Of a DNA stretch of 41,790 nt, positions 14,067 to 34,013 are shown piece after piece. The stretch covers positions 1 to 41,790 of the forward strand of contig JAQCAA010000003.1 of NCBI GenBank assembly GCA_027728645.1, read 5' to 3'. The first letter of the stretch is position 1; every line of letters begins with the position of its first letter. Below the pieces are notes generated by a model. The model was not told where the DNA came from. It did not search any database and saw nothing but the letters and a program-made list of their open reading frames with translations. A program made the translations under genes and the position numbers. This DNA is from Actinomycetota bacterium (GTDB lineage: Bacteria > Actinomycetota > Acidimicrobiia > Spongiisociales > UBA5794).

Positions 14067-14076
14067 GTGCGACCCG

Positions 14077-14109
14077 ATGGCAATTTGTCGGAATATGCCC
14101 ACTTTGTGA
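14077..14109 (+). CDS. Possible 10-codon leader ORF before ftsH
   Basis: MAICRNMPTL, stopping at TGA 14107-14109, inside or next to the GAGGAG ribosome site of ftsH. Placed just after a -10 box. May be chance; no independent support. Confidence 0.2.
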   Translation: MAICRNMPTL

Positions 14110-14117
14110 GGAGCACC

Positions 14118-16025
14118 GTGACCCGCACGGCAAGAACGATCCTTCTATACGTCGCTTCCATCTTCTTGGTAGTGCTTGCGTTCCAAGTCGTGTTCGGTCA
14201 GGCGCTGTCTCCGACAGAAATTTCTCTCGACGAGTTCAACGAGTATCTCGACAGCGGCCAGGTGTCTGGCGAGATCATTATGAAGGACCGCTCGAACGAG
14301 CTGACCGGCACAATCGACAACGGAGGTGAGCAGTTCGACTTCGTCGTCAGGTACCCAGCCGAGTTCGCTGACAATCTCACGATCAAGCTCCAGAACTCGG
14401 GCGCCTCGTTCAGGGTCGACGGTCAAGCTCCGACAATCTTTGACTACATCCTCACGTTCATTCCTTATGTTCTGATTTTCGGCTTGTTCATCTTCGTAAT
14501 CATGCGGATGCAAGGCGGTGGCAGCCGTGTCATGCAGTTCGGCAAATCGAAGGCCAAGCAGGTATCGAAGGACACGCCAAAGGTGCTGTTCTCCGATGTC
14601 GCTGGGGCCGAAGAGGCTGTTGAAGAACTCGAAGAAATCAAAGAGTTTCTTTCCTCACCTCAGAAGTTCCGGGCGATGGGGGCCAAGATTCCGAAGGGCG
14701 TACTGCTGTATGGCCCTCCGGGAACAGGCAAGACCCTCTTGGCCCGTGCCGTTGCAGGCGAGGCAGGGGTTCCCTTCTTCGCAATCTCAGGATCCGACTT
14801 CGTCGAAATGTTTGTCGGTGTGGGTGCGTCACGAGTCAGAGATCTGTTCGATCAGGCCAAGCAGAATGCGCCATCGATCGTATTCATCGATGAGATTGAC
14901 GCTGTCGGTCGCCACCGCGGTGCCGGACTCGGCGGCGGGCACGACGAACGCGAACAGACCCTCAACCAGCTGCTCGTGGAACTTGATGGCTTCGACGTTT
15001 CTTCGGGCGTCATCGTTATTGCGTCTACCAACAGGCCAGACATTCTCGACCCAGCCCTCCTTCGGCCAGGTCGATTCGATCGCCAGATCGTCGTTGGCCT
15101 TCCAGATATCAAGGGCCGAGAAGCGATCCTGAACGTGCATTCGAAGGGAAAGCCGTTATCGGAGAGCCTTGACCTTGCCGTTCTTGCTAGGCAGACCGCC
15201 GGGTTTACCGGCGCCGATCTTGCCAACCTGATCAACGAGGCTGCGATCCTGTCAGCCCGTGCTGGCGATACCGAGATAGGCATGGCTGCTCTCGAGGAAT
15301 CAGTGTCACGAGTGCTCATGGGACCGGAACGCAAGTCGCAAGTGATGTCTGAAAAGGACAAGGAGATCACCGCGTACCATGAGGGAGGCCACGCACTTGT
15401 TGGTCACGTACTGGCGAATTCCAACCCGATCCACAAGGTGACCATCATTCCTAGGGGACGATCTCTCGGTCACACCCTCTCTCTGCCGATGGACGACAAG
15501 ATCCACAAGCATCGGTCTGAGATGATCGATCAACTCGCGATGGCCCTTGGAGGTCGCGCAGCTGAGGAGCTGATCTTCGGTGACCCAAGCACAGGTGCCT
15601 CAAACGACATCGAAGTTGCAACACAGATCGCCCGCAGCATGGTCATGGAGTACGGCATGAGTGAAAAACTCGGGCCGATTCACTTCGGACGGCCGGCAGG
15701 CGAGGTGTTTCTTGGGAGGGATTACTCGCGGAACGACCATCTGTCTGACGAAGTTGCTGCCGCTGTCGACGACGAGATCCGAGTTTTGATGACCCAGGCG
15801 CACCAAGAGGCGCAAACGATTCTGTCTGCGCACGCAGATGCTCTAGGTCGAATTGCCAAAGCGTTGCTCGAGCGAGAAACTCTTGATGCACGCGAGGTCG
15901 TCGAGATCTTCAGCGATGTGCCGATGTGGGAACACTCTGAGGATGGCTCGATAAGAATCAAAGCCCCCGAGTCTGGCTCGGTTATGGAACCAACCATGGT
16001 GTCTGGAAAAGACGAAATCGCCTGA
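14118..16025 (+). CDS. ftsH: ATP-dependent zinc metalloprotease FtsH
   Basis: 635 residues from the GTG at 14118, chosen for the GAGGAG just upstream; the frame is open from the GTG at 14067. Membrane-anchored hexameric protease that degrades misfolded and regulatory membrane proteins. Two transmembrane helices (about 8-28 and 110-129) flank an external domain. The AAA+ module has GPPGTGKT (199-206), [13 protein letters not shown] (Walker B) and the SRH arginines in RPGRFDRQI. The zinc site HEGGH is at 421-425, with the third ligand in the downstream SNDIEVATQ region. The C-terminal tail is short and polar. Upstream hpt and tilS are on the same strand, but a 213-base gap suggests its own promoter. 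Confidence 0.96.
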
Positions 16026-16139
16026 CAGCTGGAACACCCCAGAGTGTGCGTTCGGTTGTCATCCTCACGCCCTGACTCCTTGATTCTGTCGGCTCAAAAA
16101 TGTCCCCGGTGCGGGTGAGGTAGCGAATACGGTCAACGC

Positions 16140-16145
16140 TATTGT
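16140..16145 (+). promoter_or_regulatory. Candidate -10 box TATTGT before the phosphatase-like gene
   Basis: TATTGT ends 9 bases before the ATG at 16155 that opens an 8-codon ORF, and 28 bases before the gene start. Confidence 0.3.
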
Positions 16146-16154
16146 CCCAATCAG

Positions 16155-16181
16155 ATGATTGTGATTAACGCAGATGAGTAA
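16155..16181 (+). CDS. Possible 8-codon leader ORF
   Basis: MIVINADE followed by TAA, overlapping the start of the phosphatase-like gene at 16174. It follows a -10 box. Similar in layout to the tiny ORFs before the zincin gene and ftsH. Confidence 0.2.
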   Translation: MIVINADE

Positions 16182-16656
16182 GAAATCCACAGGGCTTGAG
16201 CCGAGAGGCTTCCGCTGGGTTATCAAGGATCGGCTCGCTGTATCCGAAAGGGTCGGGGGCTACGGTTTCCAGCACCGAAAAGTTCGGAGAGAAGAGGAAC
16301 TCACCTGGCTGACGGATCAAGGGATCAACTCGATCGTCAGCCTGCTCGGTCCCGCTCAGAGTTCTCAACCGTACGACACGGCTGGGTTCGCATTTGCTTC
16401 CAGCGACGTTCCGGCGGATGTTGAACCCGAAGACGCTGTTGCTGTGTTCGAGCTACTCAGCGAGGCTTTGGCCCCTGCCGGTGCAGTCGTGCTGGTCCAC
16501 AGGGACACCATTGACGACACACTTGCAGGATTGCTCGCCGGGTACTTGATGCACTCCGCGATGCTCGACGACCCAATAGTGGCAACAGATGTAATCCAGC
16601 GAATACTGAGCCGCGCGATCGGTCCCGAGGGACGGCGCCTCATTCCGCAGCCCTGA
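16174..16656 (+). CDS. Dual-specificity-phosphatase-fold protein lacking catalytic residues
   Basis: 160 residues. The overall pattern is that of small bacterial dual-specificity phosphatases: GFRWVIKDRLAVSERVG at the start, DQGINSIVSLLGP, the acid-loop region SSDVPADVEP, and VVLVHRDTIDDTLAGLLAGY where the catalytic loop should be. The signature HCxxGxxR reads H-R-D-T-I-D-D-T (residues 109-116), so the nucleophile Cys is Arg and the phosphate-binding Arg is Thr. It cannot use the known mechanism. It may bind a phospho-ligand or be a structural or regulatory relic. The frame is intact and ends 2 bases before the next gene. Fold assignment is by pattern, not by search. Confidence 0.7.
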   Translation: MSKKSTGLEPRGFRWVIKDRLAVSERVGGYGFQHRKVRREEELTWLTDQGINSIVSLLGPAQSSQPYDTAGFAFASSDVPADVEPEDAVAVFELLSEALAPAGAVVLVHRDTIDDTLAGLLAGYLMHSAMLDDPIVATDVIQRILSRAIGPEGRRLIPQP

Positions 16657-16658
16657 AG

Positions 16659-17975
16659 ATGGCAAGGGCCTTTGTCGGTATCGTTTCCAACGCTGAGGAC
16701 GGTAGGCAACGTCTCGCTAGCGTCCTCGAGTCTCTCCCCAGGCTCGGCACAATCACCTGTGGGTCTCCCATCTACGAGGCCGAGCAAACAGGCGTTGCGG
16801 GCCATGGTCGACTCGAAAGCGCTGTGGTTGGACTCGACACTGGCCTTTCTCCTGACATGCTTCTTAAGGCCTTGCGGGAGATCGAGCGAGAATATGGCAG
16901 ATTTGAGAGCGACCGGGAGGGCGCTCTGGCATTTGACCTCGATCTTCTTTGGTACGACGGACAAGCCATGGATGGCGCGGGTTTCCGAGTTTCACCAACG
17001 CCAATTCGCGATCGGAAGTCTGTGCTTGCCCCGCTCGTCTATGCATCACCTGGGCTTGCGGATGCGACGGGTCCATACGCCATCTCTCTCGGCGCGGTCG
17101 CTGATCAGGTTGTTCGCAAGGTGTCCGGCCAGGTCGATCCAACGGCGCCTCGATGGCGGTCGGGGCTTGCCGACGCCCTTGATCTTGATGGCGGTGACGG
17201 TTCGTACTCGTTCAACCTTGACCGAGACTGGCAGAATCGAACGGAAGCCATGTTCGGCGGCTTCCTTGGGGCTGCCGTGCTCGCTGCTGGCGGGGCGGAG
17301 CACCCCGAGATGGTCCCGACATCGCTGACGTACCGGTATCTCAAGCCGATACTGGCAGGAGGTCGAGCCTCGATTGGTGTCGAGCACAATCGCAGGAGCG
17401 ACCGATCCGCCGACCTTTCAATGTCCGTTTCGGTTGATGGAGTCGAATGTGGCCGAGCCCACCTGTCAACGGTGGTCGACAGAGGCGTCGTCATCGCTTC
17501 CGCAAAGGCGCCAACGGTGATTCCCCTTCACGAGTGTGTGCCGGTGGACGAAATGATCGATGCGTCGGGAGGCGAACCAGGTAACTCGGTGCGCAGTTGG
17601 CGTCCGCTCGAGCGATGGGACATTCCAGATCTCGTCGATGGGGTATCGGGAAAGCTGCGGGCATGGTGCCCGAACCCGGTGGAGGGATCAGACGACGCAT
17701 ACCTGGCGGCCGCTGCGCTGTTCATGCCAATCGATGCACTCATATGGCCCGTAACAATGCTGGCAGCTGGGCGGCTAGGGGGGAAGCCGATCTTCACTCC
17801 GACGATCGAGATATCGGCTCGTTTCGCCCAAACCTCGAATCTTGGAGGATGGTTCCTCGGAGAGGCGAGCATCGACCATCTGACCACCAAATCGGTTGCG
17901 GGTTCCATCCAGGTCTGGGCCGAAGACGGCACCCACGCAGCAACCGGCCGCTCACTGAACCTCACGATCGGCTAG
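16659..17975 (+). CDS. Degenerate FolK-like domain fused to double-hotdog thioesterase-like domain
   Basis: 438 residues in one uninterrupted frame. Residues 1-155 align with 6-hydroxymethyl-dihydropterin pyrophosphokinase: GIVSNAEDG for GxGSNxGD, SPIYEAEQTG, DTGLSPDMLLKALREIEREY and the metal pair FDLDLLWYD (Asp93, Asp95). Residues matching E. coli Asn55, Arg84, Arg92 and His115 are Glu53, Glu83, Leu90 and Thr114, so kinase activity is doubtful. Residues 165-438 resemble acyl-CoA thioesterases with two hotdog halves: AMFGGFLGAAVLAAGG and SLTYRYLKPILAGG in the first, MPIDALIWPV and WFLGEASIDH near the end. The gene stands where folK normally lies after ftsH, but folE, folP and folB are absent here. 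Confidence 0.75.
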   Translation: MARAFVGIVSNAEDGRQRLASVLESLPRLGTITCGSPIYEAEQTGVAGHGRLESAVVGLDTGLSPDMLLKALREIEREYGRFESDREGALAFDLDLLWYDGQAMDGAGFRVSPTPIRDRKSVLAPLVYASPGLADATGPYAISLGAVADQVVRKVSGQVDPTAPRWRSGLADALDLDGGDGSYSFNLDRDWQNRTEAMFGGFLGAAVLAAGGAEHPEMVPTSLTYRYLKPILAGGRASIGVEHNRRSDRSADLSMSVSVDGVECGRAHLSTVVDRGVVIASAKAPTVIPLHECVPVDEMIDASGGEPGNSVRSWRPLERWDIPDLVDGVSGKLRAWCPNPVEGSDDAYLAAAALFMPIDALIWPVTMLAAGRLGGKPIFTPTIEISARFAQTSNLGGWFLGEASIDHLTTKSVAGSIQVWAEDGTHAATGRSLNLTIG

Positions 17976-17980
17976 GGAGT

Positions 17981-18032
17981 ACGTTTTGGCGTGAGGCACG
18001 GGAATATATTCCCGCAGGTCACGCCAAAACGT
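17981..18032. repeat. Compound palindromic repeat, copy 2
   Basis: A perfect 14-base outer inverted repeat (17981-17994 with 18019-18032, ACGTTTTGGCGTGA) encloses a perfect 16-base inner palindrome (17999-18014, CGGGAATATATTCCCG), with unpaired GGCA and CAGG between. It closely matches the copy at 8506-8555, and similarity continues about 12 bases beyond on the right. It lies in the gap after the FolK-like gene. Confidence 0.9.
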
Positions 18033-18089
18033 TTCTTGGAGATGGGTACGCTTCGTGACTCGGACCGATACCCATTGGATCGGAACCAC

Positions 18090-18878
18090 ATGAACATCAC
18101 AATCTATGGACCAGGGCGGGCAGGCGGGGCAATCGCGATTGCCTCAGCAGCAGCGGGACACCGCATCACCGGGATCGACGGTCGAACTCCCGAGCACACC
18201 GAAGCCCTGAGGGCGCTGGTTCACGTTTCCCACGGTGAACCCGATCTCTTGATCATCGCTGTTTCAGACGATGCCCTAGCCACGGCCTCAGAATTCATCC
18301 CGACCAACATCGCCCCGGCAGTTGCCCACCTCTCGGGAGCCGTGCGCGTCGACGTCTTGGACCCTTTTGCTGAGGCTGGCTCACTCATCGGAGCGTTCCA
18401 TCCACTGCAAACGTTTCCCGATGCCCAAACTGGCGCCGAGAGACTGGCAGGTGCGCACGTAGCCATCACAGCCGATGCCCCCCTCAACGACATTCTTAGA
18501 GACTTGGCGTCGTCGCTTGGGTGTCACAGCTTCTCGATATCGGACGACATGAAACCGCTCTATCACGCCGCGGCCGCCGCGTCTGCGAACGCAACCCTTG
18601 CAGCGCTTGCTGTTGCGTCCGATCTTTTTACCGCAGCGGGAGTCGACTTCGCTGTCGCCCGACCACTGGTGGATGCAATCGTCCGAAACGCATTCGACCT
18701 TGGCCCGAGGCACTCGCTGACCGGTCCCATTGCCCGAGGCGACATCGCCACGGTGACTGCCCAGCTCGAGGCAGTTCGCAGCGCAGCTCCCGACCTCGTG
18801 GACGCATTCGTCAACCTTGGACGAGCAACTGCCGCCGTCGCCGGAACATCGCTTGAGTTCGCTGAGGTATGGTCGTGA
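18090..18878 (+). CDS. Rossmann-fold DUF2520 protein
   Basis: 262 residues from the ATG at 18090; the frame extends upstream into the palindromic repeat but has no better start. The N-terminal NAD(P)-binding motif ITIYGPGRAGGAIAIASAAA (GxGxxG-like GPGRAGGA) is followed by the DUF2520 C-terminal helical domain with LIGAFHPLQTFPD and YHAAAAASANATLAALAV. Such proteins resemble short ketopantoate-reductase or pyrroline-carboxylate-reductase-type enzymes. In actinobacteria they are often placed directly before panC, as here, and a role in pantothenate synthesis has been suggested on that basis. The reaction is not established. It overlaps the panC start. Confidence 0.85.
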   Translation: MNITIYGPGRAGGAIAIASAAAGHRITGIDGRTPEHTEALRALVHVSHGEPDLLIIAVSDDALATASEFIPTNIAPAVAHLSGAVRVDVLDPFAEAGSLIGAFHPLQTFPDAQTGAERLAGAHVAITADAPLNDILRDLASSLGCHSFSISDDMKPLYHAAAAASANATLAALAVASDLFTAAGVDFAVARPLVDAIVRNAFDLGPRHSLTGPIARGDIATVTAQLEAVRSAAPDLVDAFVNLGRATAAVAGTSLEFAEVWS

Positions 18879-19765
18879 TCATCGTCAGAACGTTCGGAGA
18901 GGTACGGGCCGCTGCCCATTCGGCTGTATCGCTTGTGCCGACCATGGGCTACCTCCACGAGGGCCATATGAGTCTGATTGGCGCGGCCAGCCAAACAGGC
19001 GACACCACTGTCGTGTCGCTCTTTGTGAACCCGACCCAGTTCGGCGACAGCGCCGACTTCGTCGCGTACCCGCACAACGAGGCAAGGGATGCGGCGATTG
19101 CGGAGGCGGCGGGTTGCGACATTTTCTTCGCTCCGTCTGCCGACGAGGTGTACCCGCTTGGGCATCGAGTCACCGTGTCTGTTGGAGGCGTTGGCGACGC
19201 AATGGAGGGTCGATTCAGGCATGGACATTTCGAAGGCGTGGCCACCGTTGTTGCCAAGCTGTTTGCAGGAGTTCAGCCTCGCCGCGCCTTCTTCGGGCGT
19301 AAGGACGCTCAGCAGCTCGCCGTTGTCAGAACATTGCGCGACGGTCTCAGGTTCCCAGTTGAAGTGATCGGCATGCCAACAGTGCGTGAGCAGGACGGAC
19401 TTGCGCTGTCGAGTAGAAACACACAGATCGGCAAGGGTGTGCGACGCGAGGCCCTCAGCCTCAGCCGAGCACTGTTTTCAGCTGCGGACGCCATCGAACA
19501 GGGCGAGCGAGATTCAGCGGCGATTGCCAAAATCGCGCGATCTGTCGCCGCTGCCACACCTCAGGTTGAGGTCGAATACCTGGAGGTTGCCGATTCGATG
19601 TCGGCCGCTCCGATTGAGGAGATCGATCGGGACGCCTTTGTAGCGATTGCCGCAAAGGTCGGGGGAGTCAGACTGATAGACAATATTGCTGTCGATGCAG
19701 TCACACTCGCCACCGACCGCGGGATCATGCTCGACAAACAAAGCATTCTCTATGAGGAGGACTGA
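18869..19765 (+). CDS. panC: Pantothenate synthetase
   Basis: 298 residues from the ATG at 18869; an in-frame GTG at 18875 would give the classic 4-base overlap with the DUF2520 stop. Joins pantoate and beta-alanine with ATP. The nucleotidyltransferase motif VPTMGYLHEGHMSLI, VVSLFVNPTQFG, FGRKDAQQLAVVR and LSSRNTQIG are all present. The gene runs into coaX with TGATG overlap. No panD (aspartate decarboxylase) follows, though panC-panD pairs are common in actinobacteria, so beta-alanine must be made by a gene elsewhere or by another route. Confidence 0.95.
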   Translation: MVVIIVRTFGEVRAAAHSAVSLVPTMGYLHEGHMSLIGAASQTGDTTVVSLFVNPTQFGDSADFVAYPHNEARDAAIAEAAGCDIFFAPSADEVYPLGHRVTVSVGGVGDAMEGRFRHGHFEGVATVVAKLFAGVQPRRAFFGRKDAQQLAVVRTLRDGLRFPVEVIGMPTVREQDGLALSSRNTQIGKGVRREALSLSRALFSAADAIEQGERDSAAIAKIARSVAAATPQVEVEYLEVADSMSAAPIEEIDRDAFVAIAAKVGGVRLIDNIAVDAVTLATDRGIMLDKQSILYEED

Positions 19766-20538
19766 TGCTGCTCACCGTTGATGTGGGAAATACACAGATC
19801 GCACTTGGAATGTTTGATGGTGTCGAGCTCATAGGTCACTGGAGGGTTTCGACTGACCCGCATGCGACACTTGACGAGATTCGGTGGGAAATGACGGGAA
19901 TCCTGGCCTCAGATGGCTTCTCGCCAGCTGACATTTTGGGTGTTGCGATATCGAGCGTCGTTCCGGCCGTCACGACAAACCTGCGTCGGATCATTCCATT
20001 CATCACGAGCGGTCCGTCCATCGTTGTTGAGGCTGGCGTACGTACCGGTATGGCAATCGAGATTGATAACCCCCGCGAGGTAGGTGCAGATCGAGTCGTC
20101 AACGCCGTTGCTGCGCGCGAGAGGCACGGCACCCCAGTGGTCGTCGTCGACTTTGGGACTTCGACGAACTTCGATGTCGTCGGACCGAGCGGTGCGTACC
20201 TTGGTGGCGTGATCGCCCCTGGGCTCGAGATAGCGACCAATGCGCTGGTTGCTGGCACGGCGGCCCTACGGCGAGTCGAGTTCTCTCCACCCAGGTCCGT
20301 TATAGGGAAGGGCACGGTCGAAGCGATCCAGTCCGGAGCCGTCTTCGGTCATGCAGGAATGGTTGACGGGATCCTCGAACGCATCGCCGCCGAACTCGGT
20401 GAGGACCCTATCCGCGTCGCGACCGGGGGCCTCGCGTCTACCATCGTGCCTCACTGCACAAGCGTCGACACTATCGACGAATATCTGACTCTCGAAGGAC
20501 TCAGAATCATCTTCGACCGCAATCAGGACACCGAATGA
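19765..20538 (+). CDS. coaX: Type III pantothenate kinase
   Basis: 257 residues, ATG overlapping the panC stop by one base, with a strong AGGAGG at 19755-19760. ASKHA-fold kinase: phosphate-1 motif LLTVDVGNTQIALGMFD, phosphate-2 motif VVVDFGTSTNFDVV, GADRVVNAVAA and YLGGVIAPGLEI are characteristic of CoaX. First step of coenzyme A synthesis from pantothenate, following the panC product. The gene overlaps lysS by 4 bases (ATGA), so DUF2520-panC-coaX-lysS behaves as one operon. Confidence 0.95.
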   Translation: MLLTVDVGNTQIALGMFDGVELIGHWRVSTDPHATLDEIRWEMTGILASDGFSPADILGVAISSVVPAVTTNLRRIIPFITSGPSIVVEAGVRTGMAIEIDNPREVGADRVVNAVAARERHGTPVVVVDFGTSTNFDVVGPSGAYLGGVIAPGLEIATNALVAGTAALRRVEFSPPRSVIGKGTVEAIQSGAVFGHAGMVDGILERIAAELGEDPIRVATGGLASTIVPHCTSVDTIDEYLTLEGLRIIFDRNQDTE

Positions 20539-28633: not shown

Positions 28634-30151
28634 GTGACACTGGAATTGCGCGGTATTACCAAGCAGTTTCCTGGCGTCTTGGCGAACGACGATGTCAACC
28701 TTTCTGCCTCCGAAGGCGAGATCGTCGCCCTGCTGGGGGAAAACGGTGCTGGCAAGACAACCCTGATGAACATTCTGTACGGCCTCTACACACCAACGGC
28801 AGGCGAAGTCATCGTCGATGGCAAGGCATTGGTACTCGAATCGCCGGCCGATGCGATCGATGCGGGAATTGGCATGGTTCATCAGCATTTCATGCTTGTC
28901 CCGGTGTTTACGGTCGCCGAGAATGTTGTGCTTGGTGACGAACCGACGAAGCGGATGGGCTGGCTTGACTCCCGGCGTGCCAAGAAAACGGTGACTGATA
29001 TTTCAGGCCGGTACGGTCTCGATGTCGACCCAGACGCAATTGTCGAGGATCTTCCCGTCGGGTTTCAACAACGGGTGGAGATCATCAAAGTCCTAGCGCG
29101 AGAGGCACGATTCTTAGTTTTCGACGAGCCAACTTCTGTCCTTACGCCTCCAGAGGTCGAGCGGTTCTTTGAGATTGTGAATGGGCTCAAAGCCGACGGT
29201 AAGGGGATCATCTTCATCAGCCACAAGCTTGGTGAAGCTCTTGAGATCGCCGACAGAATCGTCATCATGCGCAGAGGCAAGACGGTTGCGGAGGTGAACC
29301 CGCGGGACGTCGACGAACCAAAGCTTGCTGAGCTGATGGTCGGCCGACCCGTTGACCTTGTCGTGAACAGGACCGAGTCCGATCCGGGGGACGTGGTGCT
29401 CTCGGTCAACGATCTCACCGTATTGGATGATCGCGGTAGGAACGCCGTCGATCGGCTGTCGATCGAAGTGCGGGCTGGCGAAATCGTTGGTATCGCCGGC
29501 GTGCAAGGGAATGGACAGACTGAGCTCGTCGAGTCTCTTACGGGCATGCGTCCGTCGCTCGGCGGAGTCGTACGGTTGAAGGGTCTCGACGTCACTTCGA
29601 AATCGCCACGCGCTATTCACAACCTCGATGTAGCGCATGTGCCAGAGGACCGGCAAAAGAGCGGTCTCGTGCTTCAGTTCACAGTCACAGAGAACATTGT
29701 CCTCGATTCCTACCATCAGGCGCCCATTTCACGCGGTGTACGGATGGATTGGGGTCAGGCCACGGATAGGGCGCTGCGACTTGTCGAGGAGTATGACGTC
29801 AGGACTCCATCCACCGAGGTGAAGGTTTCCACGCTGTCTGGAGGCAATCAACAGAAGGTAATTGTGGCGAGAGAGTTCGATCGAGACGTGACGCTGGTGA
29901 TTGCGTCCCAGCCGACTCGTGGAATCGATGTTGGCTCCATCGAATATATCCACAGCCGGATCGTCGAGGAACGTGATGCCGGCGCGGCCGTCCTGATTGT
30001 GTCGTCAGAACTCGATGAGATCATGGCCCTCTCCGATCGCATCCTGGTGATGTACGAGGGTCGAGTGGTTGCAGAGTTTGACGGGTCGGCTTCGACGACT
30101 GATATCGGTTTGGCGATGCTTGGCAGTCGACCGGACGAGGAAGCTTCATGA
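28634..30151 (+). CDS. ABC transporter ATPase, two fused NBDs (nucleoside-type)
   Basis: 505 residues from the GTG at 28634, with GGAG 6 bases upstream. Two nucleotide-binding domains in one chain, as in sugar and nucleoside importers (RbsA/YufO type). NBD1: P-loop GENGAGKTT (about 35-43), MVHQHFMLVPVFTVAENV and a signature region VGFQQRVEIIKVLAREARFL. NBD2: GVQGNGQTELVESL as its P-loop, LSGGNQQKVIVAREF as its signature, then ASQPTRGIDVGSIEYIH. NBD2 looks partly degenerate at the Walker A lysine (GNGQT), as is common in this class. Overlaps the first permease by 4 bases. Confidence 0.93.
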   Translation: MTLELRGITKQFPGVLANDDVNLSASEGEIVALLGENGAGKTTLMNILYGLYTPTAGEVIVDGKALVLESPADAIDAGIGMVHQHFMLVPVFTVAENVVLGDEPTKRMGWLDSRRAKKTVTDISGRYGLDVDPDAIVEDLPVGFQQRVEIIKVLAREARFLVFDEPTSVLTPPEVERFFEIVNGLKADGKGIIFISHKLGEALEIADRIVIMRRGKTVAEVNPRDVDEPKLAELMVGRPVDLVVNRTESDPGDVVLSVNDLTVLDDRGRNAVDRLSIEVRAGEIVGIAGVQGNGQTELVESLTGMRPSLGGVVRLKGLDVTSKSPRAIHNLDVAHVPEDRQKSGLVLQFTVTENIVLDSYHQAPISRGVRMDWGQATDRALRLVEEYDVRTPSTEVKVSTLSGGNQQKVIVAREFDRDVTLVIASQPTRGIDVGSIEYIHSRIVEERDAGAAVLIVSSELDEIMALSDRILVMYEGRVVAEFDGSASTTDIGLAMLGSRPDEEAS

Positions 30152-31389
30152 GTGACGCTGAGATGCCCCAAGAACCCCCAGCCGAACCCGGTATTCCGGA
30201 GGGCGAACCGCCCGAAGATCGGGCCAGTTCGGAGATGTATCGCCGGGTCACCGGAATTGGCACATCGGCTGGACGGGCGATGGTCGTCCCAGCCCTAGCG
30301 GTTCTCACGGCGCTCATTATCGGAGCGTTCATTATTGCGGTGACGGACGTTGACACGCTCTCTGTGTGGGGGGATGACCCAGCCGAAGCGTTCCGTCTCA
30401 CCGTGTCGGGAATCTTCGATGCCTACCGGGCGTTGCTCGTGGGGTCCGTCGGCTCGCTCGATGCCATCAGCGAAACGCTGTTTGCTGCGGCACCGATGAT
30501 CCTCGCTGGGCTTGCGGTCGCCGTCGGATTCCAAGCAGGGCTGTTCAATATCGGCGTCAACGGTCAAATGCACATCGGTGGCATGGCAGCTCTGTGGGTG
30601 GGCTTCACCTTTGCGATTCCAGCCGTCTTCCATGTGCCGCTTGTCATTGCAGCAGCGATCGCAGGCGGTGCGTTGTGGGCCGCGCTAGCGGGGTTCCTAA
30701 AGGCGAGGACGGGTGCCCACGAAGTCATCACCACCATCATGTTGAACTTCATTGCGCTATTCCTTGTCGACTATCTGTTGAAGTCTTCACTTTTTCAAGC
30801 GCCGGGCCGCAATGACCCGATATCCCAGCCTGCGAACCCAACCTCTGTGTTTGTGACTCTTTTCAGCGATTACCGACTCAATATCGGGTTCATTGTCGCG
30901 CTGCTGGCTGTGGCGTTTGTTTGGTGGCTTATGTACCGAACAACGATTGGGTTTGAGTTCAGGGCTGTTGGCTACAGCCCGTCTGGAGGTCGCTACGCAG
31001 GAATGAGCGTGGCATGGGTTTATGTGTCTGTGATGGCAGTGTCCGGTGCTCTTGCTGGGATCGCAGGTGCGAATCAAGTTGTGGGTCTCGAACCCTATCG
31101 CGGCATTTCGAACTTCGCAGGGAACGTCGGTTTCGATGCAATCGCCCTCGCCCTCCTCGGTAGATCCCATCCGGTTGGAGTGTTGTTTGCCGGGTTGCTC
31201 TTCGGGGGGTTGCGTGCAGGTGGTCGAGAAATGCAAGGAGCTGCAGGAATTCCGATTGATCTTGTGCTCGTGCTTCAGGCTCTGATCATCGTGATGATTG
31301 CGGCCCCCGAACTTGTGCGAGCGATCTATCGCGTCAAGACCCCAGACCAAGAGATAACCACGGTCACCTCGACTGGGTGGGGCGCATGA
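30148..31389 (+). CDS. ABC transporter permease 1 (BPD_transp_2, nucleoside-type)
   Basis: 413 residues, ATGA overlap with the ATPase gene. Proline/acidic cytoplasmic N-terminus of about 45 residues, then eight to ten transmembrane helices. Family landmarks: AVGFQAGLFNIGVNGQMHIG, TGAHEVITTIMLNFIALFL, GFEFRAVGYSPSGGRYAGM and GFDAIALALLGRSHPVGV. Resembles YufP-type permeases partnered with BMP binding proteins. The second permease overlaps its stop. Confidence 0.9.
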   Translation: MSDAEMPQEPPAEPGIPEGEPPEDRASSEMYRRVTGIGTSAGRAMVVPALAVLTALIIGAFIIAVTDVDTLSVWGDDPAEAFRLTVSGIFDAYRALLVGSVGSLDAISETLFAAAPMILAGLAVAVGFQAGLFNIGVNGQMHIGGMAALWVGFTFAIPAVFHVPLVIAAAIAGGALWAALAGFLKARTGAHEVITTIMLNFIALFLVDYLLKSSLFQAPGRNDPISQPANPTSVFVTLFSDYRLNIGFIVALLAVAFVWWLMYRTTIGFEFRAVGYSPSGGRYAGMSVAWVYVSVMAVSGALAGIAGANQVVGLEPYRGISNFAGNVGFDAIALALLGRSHPVGVLFAGLLFGGLRAGGREMQGAAGIPIDLVLVLQALIIVMIAAPELVRAIYRVKTPDQEITTVTSTGWGA

Positions 31390-32663
31390 CAGCGGTATCG
31401 GACGCAAGCGAACAGTTGACCAGCACGAGGGCAACGCCAGCTGAGAAGCGTGCTACTGCTGTCGGCATCGTTCTCGTCTTGCTCGCCGCTTTCACATTCT
31501 GGGCCTTCGGTCTCGACGTTGACAGTGGATTCGAATCGCAATTCAACCTCTCGCTGCCTGGCGCTCGCTACGAGAATCTGTCTTGGGTTGTCGACTCGAG
31601 AGCGGTCGGGTTCATCGTTGCTCTCGTACTCGCGTTCCTCGGCGGGTTCATACTCCGGCGCTCGCACCTCAAGTGGACCAACCTCTCACTATCGGTCGGG
31701 CTCGCGCTCTTTGTGTTTTCCTTCCTTACATGGGCTGCCGCTGATGGAGCGTTCAGCTTCGTTGGAATGCTGACCTCGACCGTTGTGCTGTCGGTACCTG
31801 TGACACTTGGTGCGCTCACAGGTCTGATGTGCGAGCGGGTAGCCGTCATCAACATTGCCATCGAAGGACAGTTGCTTACGTCTGCGTTCGTTGGAACGAT
31901 CGTCGGGTCGGCCGCCGGTATTTGGGTCGGTCTGTTCGCCGCAATGCTGACGGGTGCGCTGCTCGGTGCCGTGCTGGCAGTACTCGCGATCAAATACCGG
32001 ATGGATCAAATCATCGCAGGCGTGGTGATCAATATCTTTGCTCTCGGCCTGACTTCGTTCCTCGCCCGTCGCGTTTTGGCACAGTCCCAAGAATTGAACT
32101 CGCCGGGTCGTTTCGGTTCGGTCAAGATCCCATTTCTCGGCGACATTCCCGTGATTGGCCCGATGTTCTTTGACCACAACATGTTTGTGTACATCACATT
32201 CATCTTGGTCATTGCGCTACATTTCGGACTCTTCTACACGCGATGGGGACTTCGGTCACGCTCAGTCGGCGAGCATCCAAAGGCTGCCGACACAGTCGGA
32301 ATCAACGTATATCGCACGCGGTACCGCAATGTGATTCTTGGAGGCGTCATCGCAGGATTCGGAGGTGGGTTCCTTACGCTCGCTCAGGTCTCGAGATTCG
32401 AAGAGAACCTCACTGCTGGAATCGGGTTCATCGGACTCGCTGCGTTGATCTTCGGGCGATGGCGCCCTCTCGGTGTCCTCGCTGCTGGCCTTGTGTTCGG
32501 CTTCGCGAGAGCTCTTCAGCAGAAACTAGGAATCCTTGGGACGCCGATCCCATCGGAGTTTCTTTCGATGACCCCGTACATTGTGACGATCATCGTCGTC
32601 GCTGGCGTCGTCGGACGAGCCCGCCCACCAGCCGCCGACGGCCAGCCGTATATCAAGGACTAG
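31386..32663 (+). CDS. ABC transporter permease 2 (BPD_transp_2, nucleoside-type)
   Basis: 425 residues from the ATG at 31386 (ATGA overlap); a GTG at 31377 is in frame. About ten transmembrane helices. The N-terminal third has an extra pair of helices before the conserved core. Core landmarks: GALTGLMCERVAVINIAIEG, KYRMDQIIAGVVINIFALGL, GLRSRSVGEHPKAADTVGIN and GGGFLTLAQVSRF. Resembles YufQ. Binding protein, ATPase and both permeases form a complete importer, probably for nucleosides. Confidence 0.9.
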   Translation: MTAVSDASEQLTSTRATPAEKRATAVGIVLVLLAAFTFWAFGLDVDSGFESQFNLSLPGARYENLSWVVDSRAVGFIVALVLAFLGGFILRRSHLKWTNLSLSVGLALFVFSFLTWAAADGAFSFVGMLTSTVVLSVPVTLGALTGLMCERVAVINIAIEGQLLTSAFVGTIVGSAAGIWVGLFAAMLTGALLGAVLAVLAIKYRMDQIIAGVVINIFALGLTSFLARRVLAQSQELNSPGRFGSVKIPFLGDIPVIGPMFFDHNMFVYITFILVIALHFGLFYTRWGLRSRSVGEHPKAADTVGINVYRTRYRNVILGGVIAGFGGGFLTLAQVSRFEENLTAGIGFIGLAALIFGRWRPLGVLAAGLVFGFARALQQKLGILGTPIPSEFLSMTPYIVTIIVVAGVVGRARPPAADGQPYIKD

Positions 32664-32686
32664 CGGTCGGTCGCTGCGCGCCCGTG

Positions 32687-32742
32687 TTCACCGTCTACCG
32701 TTCACCGTCTACAGGCTTCGGGCTTCGCCCGCTGGCTTCGCC
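32687..32742. repeat. Degenerate heptamer array B
   Basis: Eight consecutive 7-base units, the first four TTCACCG, TCTACCG, TTCACCG, TCTACAG, the next two GCTTCGG and GCTTCGC, the rest less regular. Confidence 0.7.
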
Positions 32743-32882
32743 AGTGTTGTCGGTTCTGGGGAATCGGGTATCCGCTTCGTAGTCCGTGAACCGATCGCTC
32801 GCTTTGCTCGCTTACCGACCGGAATGGAAGAGGACCGATTCGTCCTAATCGGTTCGTCGGTTATCGGGGTTCGAACAGTCCG

Positions 32883-32903
32883 TCCTCTGCCCTCTGTCCT
32901 CTG
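32883..32903. repeat. Heptamer array C
   Basis: TCCTCTG, CCCTCTG, TCCTCTG in direct succession. The word TCCTCTG recurs at 9180 and in array D at 41407-41448. Confidence 0.75.
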
Positions 32904-32907
32904 AGAT

Positions 32908-33807
32908 CTAGTTCTCTACTCCGTAGATCTCGATGCCTTGGAGGGCGAGTTCTGTGAACGGAGTCAGCTCTCCTGCCGACTGGGCAAGATATGTCGTGGT
33001 GACTTCAATCCTGAGCTTGAATGTTTGCAGGCTTGCGATCGGGACCCGCTGAGGCTCGTTCGAGTTTTGGAGCCGGCCAGGGATGGTGACGTTGAGGTCG
33101 TTGACCTCAATCTGGTAGCCCTGGATCTTGTAGTTGCGTTTGAAGGCTTCGTCATCCTCAACATTCTGAAAGACAATGTCGGTGATTGCCACCGGCGTAG
33201 CAAAGTTGAATTCGAGCCATGCTCCGACTCCTCGCGCCCCATCGTCGTTCCAGCGGGTGTCGGGGTTCCCATCGATGAGGTTTTCCGGTCGATACGAATC
33301 GCTGAGGAACGAACTCGCGGTCACAGATGACGGCACAAGGAGAACTGCTGGCTGTGGAACAGTGGAGCTTGTCGTTGAACTTGTCTCCGTTGGGTCGGAA
33401 GGGCCTGCTGCCACATCCCCGCCGAAGATGTTCATCATCAGGGCAACGAGGGCCACAAGGAGTACGATCGCCAGGAGGACCCCGAGAGCTCGGCCTCCAG
33501 CAGAAGAGCGTGATGCCGGCGCAGGAGCTATTGGCATCGGATCTGAATTCAATCGTGAGCCACACCGCTCGCAGTGATGGTTGTAGGCAGGGTTGTGGGC
33601 GCCGCATGATGGGCAGGTGACGGCCGCGACGTTCTGATCAGAGGTTGTGACGTGCTGTTGACTCACGGCAAGTTCGCCGGTGTTGTCCGCTGATTGTGCT
33701 CGACCCTTGGGTGGTCTGTCGGTGGTCGATTTGTCGGCAGGGGTGTCTGGAAGGTCGAACCTCTCGAAGAGGTCGTCGAATTGATCGTTGCGGTCATCGC
33801 CTTGCAT
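32908..33807 (-). CDS. Membrane protein with zinc ribbon and discoidin-like external domain
   Basis: 299 residues; GAGGAA about 6-7 bases upstream of the ATG supports the start. The cytoplasmic N-terminus is acidic and polar, then a zinc ribbon CPSCGAHNPAYNHHCERCGS (about 65-84), one transmembrane helix (ALGVLLAIVLLVALVALMMN), a Ser/Thr-rich stretch and an external beta domain. That domain has SSFLSDSYRPENLIDGNPDT and RWNDDGARGVGAWLEFNFAT, the pattern of discoidin/F5-8C-type or NADase-type glycan-binding domains. Likely senses or binds something at the envelope while the ribbon faces the cytoplasm. The ligand is unknown. Confidence 0.75.
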   Translation of the reverse strand: MQGDDRNDQFDDLFERFDLPDTPADKSTTDRPPKGRAQSADNTGELAVSQQHVTTSDQNVAAVTCPSCGAHNPAYNHHCERCGSRLNSDPMPIAPAPASRSSAGGRALGVLLAIVLLVALVALMMNIFGGDVAAGPSDPTETSSTTSSTVPQPAVLLVPSSVTASSFLSDSYRPENLIDGNPDTRWNDDGARGVGAWLEFNFATPVAITDIVFQNVEDDEAFKRNYKIQGYQIEVNDLNVTIPGRLQNSNEPQRVPIASLQTFKLRIEVTTTYLAQSAGELTPFTELALQGIEIYGVEN

Positions 33808-33862
33808 TGCGGTTCCTCACCGGTGTCTTGCCCTTGAGCCGTGTCTCAGGCCCATTCGCGGG

Positions 33863-33868
33863 TATTGT
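33863..33868 (+). promoter_or_regulatory. -10 box TATTGT of a leaderless transcript
   Basis: TATTGT ends 7 bases before the ATG at 33876. Confidence 0.4.
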
Positions 33869-33875
33869 GCCACGA

Positions 33876-33995
33876 ATGCCCTTCTTGTCCGAAATACGCA
33901 TCGCTGAACCATGGACCCCCGTCTCGGTGGTCATCGGCGTTGTGCTTCTTGTCGCACTGGTGGGTGGAATCGCATGGTTCATCCGGCGCTCGTGA
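33876..33995 (+). CDS. 39-residue single-helix membrane protein
   Basis: MPFLSEIRIAEPWTP, then a hydrophobic helix (VSVVIGVVLLVALVGGIAWF) and the basic end IRRS. This fits a small inner-membrane protein with its C-terminus inside. The start is supported by a -10 box in the leaderless position. It lies between the divergent zinc-ribbon gene and radA. No family recognised. Confidence 0.45.
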   Translation: MPFLSEIRIAEPWTPVSVVIGVVLLVALVGGIAWFIRRS

Positions 33996-34013
33996 TTTGT
34001 CACAGTCACATCG

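Follow-up and report, generated by a model that had tools for sequence, protein, structure and literature searches.

A degenerate HPPK domain fused to a double-hotdog thioesterase-like domain in a folate-pantothenate operon without folP

The window, that is, the whole stretch of 41,790 nucleotides that was analysed, contains a gene in the place of folK in which a single frame encodes an HPPK (FolK) domain followed by a thioesterase-like domain, and in which residues of the HPPK active site are replaced. The locus raises the question of whether the HPPK fold has been given a new task in this protein, as an earlier note on the sequence had proposed, or whether it is what is left of a folate enzyme. 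The account favoured here, which is considered probable, is that the gene encoded a bifunctional protein of the folate operon, that its HPPK half has been decaying after the loss of folP, and that this half is carried by a thioesterase half that would still be under selection.

The fusion gene and its operon

The continuous frame described in the earlier note was confirmed as an open frame with Pfam domains in both halves (Table 1). The HPPK family PF01288 matches residues 6-127 (42.8 bits, E 8e-11; cut-off 25.7), and the NCBIfam folK model (TIGR01498) gives 44.5 bits, under its cut-off of 54.1. In the rest of the chain there are two hotdog domains, PF13622 over its cut-off and PF20789 just below it in the window copy (23.3 bits for a cut-off of 24.1). 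As the earlier note had supposed, an HPPK fold is predicted for residues 1-155: the AlphaFold model has pLDDT values mostly above 90 across them, and its best Foldseek match is the HPPK 2qx0 (E 2.7e-9, TM 0.85 by target length), a match that rests on an input alignment made of the window protein and 55 HPPKs. The C-terminal half is poorly modelled (pLDDT mostly below 60) because this alignment held HPPKs only.

In the family the gene order tilS-hpt-ftsH-folP-[160 aa]-folK(-TE)-DUF2520-panC-coaX-lysS is conserved, and the occurrence of FolK in pantothenate operons is known from earlier work (PMC1971073). The true start of the DUF2520 protein is probably further in than the position in Table 1, given that its homologues align from about residue 27. 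The 160-aa protein (homologues L053-L070) is found in every family genome examined and is kept where folP has been lost; it looks like a dual-specificity-phosphatase-like fold in which the catalytic Cys is replaced (HRDxxDDT). Elsewhere in the window, at 30000-34000, the AT skew is about -0.2, coinciding with ABC transporter membrane-permease-like frames (30148-32663).

It is extremely improbable that the gene is an artefact of assembly or sequencing, be it a chimera or a set of errors in the HPPK half. The genome is a draft of 158 contigs, but the frame is open, third-position GC is alike in the gene and in its sister (0.57 and 0.60), the changes are distributed across the whole HPPK half, and the gene order on either side agrees with the operon of the relatives.

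Table 1. Features of the fusion gene, its neighbours and related loci (positions in the window unless a locus is named)
Feature	Position	Strand	Remarks
ftsH	14067..16025	+	Peptidase_M41 and AAA
Interval from ftsH to next gene, place of folP in relatives	16026..16173		148 bp
Conserved 160-aa protein gene	16174..16656	+	no Pfam family; ends 2 bp before fusion gene
HPPK-thioesterase fusion gene	16659..17975	+	438 aa; ATG at 16659, stop 17975, no internal stop
HPPK (FolK) half, degenerate active site	16659..17123	+	residues 1-155; PF01288; predicted HPPK fold
First hotdog, 4HBT_3	17220..17465	+	residues 188-269; PF13622, 26.4 bits
Second hotdog, 4HBT_3C	17637..17951	+	residues 327-431; PF20789; profile alignment
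Rossmann-like/DUF2520 protein	17991..18878	+	PF10728, PF10727
panC, pantoate-beta-alanine ligase	18869..19765	+	PF02569
coaX, type III pantothenate kinase	19765..20538	+	PF03309
FolK-FolE (HPPK-GTP cyclohydrolase I) cluster, SDR-folB-folKE-moaA	L035 7468-8622, 8612-8983, 8980-9711, 6428-7585	-	
Thioesterase remnant in G040	L053 8483-8605	+	41 codons, broken by stops; between 160-aa gene and DUF2520

The two halves compared across the family

The architecture is recurrent: it was found at the same operon position in 13 of the 50 family genomes, distributed over six genera (three genomes in g1, five in g2, two in g15 and one each in g7, g16 and g19), with 12 full copies, the window included, and one cut by a contig end. 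In the alignment of the fusions, HPPK is matched in 12/12 sequences, 4HBT_3 in 11/12 and PF20789 in 7/12 (E<=0.01). Matches above 300 bits to the thioesterase half are restricted to the family, with none in the other 88 order-level genomes or in the class-level draw, and beyond the family the next matches reach at most 109 bits. Scanning the genome contigs with the fusion protein returned nothing, and scanning them with the alignment returned at least 80 plain HPPKs. An origin of the thioesterase from a gene lying beside folK elsewhere was rejected, as the flanks of the standalone relatives in the class (17 of the weaker loci) match no gene of the operon; some of these relatives adjoin crotonase-like or acyl-CoA-synthetase-like frames.

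Other forms of FolK also occur in the family. In two genomes (G023 and G049), HPPK is fused at the same operon position to a uracil phosphoribosyltransferase (UPRTase; L066 2255-3415, + strand, and L065 3775-4947, - strand). Elsewhere FolK mostly stands alone with a hydrophobic helix at its C-terminus (L016-L019, L021-L025, L027, L029-L032), for example ...LLLVVLGALAIWWIGDWLL, which suggests a membrane-anchored HPPK in many members.

The residues of the HPPK half were compared with those of E. coli HPPK and of 28 HPPKs from the family (E. coli numbering, with T1 as the first residue). The pterin-pocket contacts T42, P44, N55, W89 and F123 have become A, Q, S, E and S in the window copy. At the ATP site (R82, R84, R92, H115, R121) the window copy has R, E, L, P and R, so that two of five residues are kept. 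The full list of losses is G8V, T42A, P44Q, Q50H, N55 to S54, R84 to E83, W89E, R92 to L90, P114S, H115 to P113 and F123S, and the residues kept are S9, N10, E77, R82, R121 and the metal-binding pair Asp95/Asp97, present as D93/D95. The earlier note had thus read R84, R92 and the metal aspartates correctly, and was one column off in giving Glu for Asn55 and Thr for His115; its concern that the catalytic residues might in fact be conserved is settled by the alignment in favour of a real loss. Among 40 positions that are at least 90% conserved in the 28 family HPPKs, the window copy is altered at 15 and retains 25, and each of the other 28 sequences shows 0-6 changes. In SaHPPK structures the equivalents of T42, N55, W89 and F123 surround the pterin (PMC3261883), so that the window copy has lost its pterin pocket, some of its ATP site and, as judged from the alignment, its HPPK active site.

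This loss is not a property of the fusion. Of the other fused copies, 11 have a complete HPPK half, and in each of these the active site is intact, including the copies of two species in the same genus (G046 and G048); it is thus very probable that HPPK was functional in the ancestral fusion. The view of the earlier note, if applied to the fusion itself as a degenerate FolK retained for scaffolding, is not supported.

The change is also specific to one domain. The HPPK half of the window copy is 36-52% identical to its fused relatives, compared with mostly 45-65% among the others, and the identity of its thioesterase half is not lowered. On a topology fixed to that of the thioesterase-half tree, the terminal branch leading to the window species measures 0.885 substitutions/site for HPPK versus 0.151 for the thioesterase half, and that of the sister G046 measures 0.292 and 0.345. 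From these four branch lengths, the HPPK half would have evolved about 7-fold faster than the sister-scaled expectation, and the acceleration is confined to the branch of the window species. In a Tajima-type count with G048 as outgroup, private changes number 30 vs 12 in the HPPK half and 17 vs 34 in the thioesterase half. Synonymous sites are saturated for dN/dS per domain; therefore the rate data show a shift in one domain and do not separate relaxed from changed constraint.

As for the thioesterase half, a profile search gives 3rqb, 3cjy, 3rd7 and 3bbj as the nearest solved structures. In the second hotdog, a conserved acidic position is occupied by Glu384 here and by Asp or Glu in every fused copy; it corresponds in the alignment to an Asp of 3rd7 that we take to be at the position of TesB Asp204. 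Two of three aligned standalone relatives of the class retain the QQML motif, whose Gln stands in the place of TesB Gln278. The catalytic triad of TesB is Asp-Thr-Gln (PMC516016); in all fused members the Gln position is occupied by other residues, and the position of the Thr is not firmly alignable. Given the conserved acidic residue, but with the Gln lacking a counterpart, acyl-CoA hydrolysis is plausible, and from its family membership this half probably binds or hydrolyses acyl-CoA, albeit without the TesB-type Gln.

folP and the rest of the folate pathway

De novo folate synthesis is commonly recognised by the presence of HPPK together with DHPS (PMC1971073). Strong matches to a DHPS-type folP are present in 40 of the 50 family genomes, and 47 have any Pterin_bind match, in seven of them other or partial matches only. 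In most relatives folP lies directly upstream of folK, as it does in the folP-containing genomes that were mapped, including all three other genomes of the genus as far as their contigs reach. In the window species it is found neither between ftsH and folK, as the earlier note had reported for this locus, nor elsewhere in the assembly, and a search of the interval between ftsH and the next gene found no trace of a folP remnant. This absence holds within the bounds of an assembly that is 93.8% complete, so that a folP elsewhere is possible.

A parallel case is provided by G040, in which folP and folK (the HPPK half) are missing and most of the thioesterase is gone (Table 1). Taken together, the window species and G040 imply at least two losses of folP and the folK fusion, differing in extent, and the thioesterase half, also lost in G040, is not indispensable within the family.

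The earlier note expected folE and folB between ftsH and folK; in this family they normally lie in a separate SDR-folB-folKE cluster. The window genome has this cluster on contig C137, with FolK-FolE, folB, SDR and moaA, and a search for separate copies of the three folate genes thus recovers folE and a second folK as one FolK-FolE protein, and no folP. FolK-FolE, full length or partial, is present in nearly all family genomes. Its HPPK half keeps N55, R82, R84, R92, D95 and D97, and H115 and W89 are missing in every sequence aligned. It is retained in the folP-less genomes G000 (the window genome) and G040, and therefore may serve something other than folate. A pterin-dependent aromatic hydroxylase served by FolK-FolE and folB was considered and discarded, as none of 15 genomes contains PF00351. 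FolC is present in the window genome; neither a clear PabB nor, in its assembly, a methionine-synthase-type Pterin_bind domain was found there. The loss of pabB was rejected as a marker of folate loss, since pabB was not found in G046, G037 or G044 either, all of which contain folP.

Competing explanations and their meaning

The preferred reading is supported because the HPPK sites are lost only in the window copy, the acceleration is specific to one domain, folP is absent and G040 offers a parallel. The gene would descend from a bifunctional protein of the folate-pantothenate operon whose N-terminal half, to judge from the intact catalytic residues and the gene order of the relatives, made 6-hydroxymethyldihydropterin diphosphate for the adjacent FolP. 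The deletion of folP in the window species would have left this half without a purpose, and the pterin pocket and several ATP-site residues would then have been replaced; the two losses apparently coincide, which suggests the one as the cause of the other. The half would persist by being in frame with the double hotdog, perhaps needed for the folding or expression of the latter, which was retained at a normal substitution rate. The cell, which keeps FolC, probably imports folate or one of its precursors. Against decay stand the open frame, the 25 conserved positions that are left, including the metal Asp pair, R82 and R121, and the retention of folE, folB and a second HPPK domain (FolK-FolE), which is odd without folate synthesis.

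The first of these points would also suit the proposal of the earlier note, in which the HPPK fold, without kinase activity, is repurposed to serve the thioesterase in binding a nucleotide or acyl-CoA, in regulation or in dimerisation, as would the predicted integrity of the fold and the kept Asp pair, R82 and R121. However, the downstream half requires an open frame regardless, fast change is expected from lost constraint, and the altered form is known from one genome only, so that a new conserved motif cannot be shown. With five pterin-site contacts (T42, P44, N55, W89, F123) and three ATP contacts (R84, R92, H115) gone, in a half that evolves several-fold faster, a binding or scaffold role is considered unlikely. 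The broader idea, that the fusion truly connects folate with acyl-CoA metabolism as a bifunctional protein of the folate-pantothenate operon and that the dead HPPK fold has here become a part of a new double-hotdog enzyme that serves regulation or binding, is considered more doubtful still. The retained folB and the FolK-FolE protein, with its six kept residues and its wide occurrence, would fit a cell that still makes folate, with FolK-FolE performing the HPPK step, folP hidden in a gap of the assembly or its place taken by an unrelated enzyme, and the HPPK half of the window protein redundant. Yet the HPPK half of FolK-FolE has neither H115 nor W89, folP is missing exactly at its expected place on a continuous contig, and in folP-containing relatives FolK-FolE stands beside an intact operon FolK, so that redundancy by itself has not freed the operon copy from constraint there; this alternative is given little credence.

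Compared with known systems, the window protein shares with HPPK (E. coli HPPK, 2qx0) the fold, the metal Asp pair, R82 and R121, and differs in the replaced N55, R84, W89, R92, H115, F123, T42 and P44 and in the fused thioesterase-like half. With the 12 other fusions of the family (L004-L015) it has in common the architecture, position and linker, and a thioesterase half that is 31-68% identical, but in those relatives the HPPK site is intact and folP, if the contig extends far enough, lies immediately upstream; the window copy has neither feature. HPPK is also part of a bifunctional protein in HPPK-DHPS (3mco, plant 7mpy) and DHNA-HPPK (2cg8), in which the partner is another folate enzyme and not a double hotdog. 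The actinobacterial double-hotdog acyl-CoA thioesterases (3rqb, 3cjy, 3rd7, 3bbj) and the standalone relatives (L209-L217) likewise consist of two hotdogs and carry the conserved acidic residue in the second one, whereas all fused members are without the QQML Gln and are joined to HPPK.

In agreement with the earlier note, no description of a fusion of HPPK with a double-hotdog thioesterase was found in the literature searched. An annotated HPPK match is no proof that this lineage makes folate. The locus may be regarded as a natural experiment, in which a fused domain would have lost its constraint upon deletion of the gene of its pathway partner while the other domain was retained, and both halves can be tested with the help of sister species that have the intact form.
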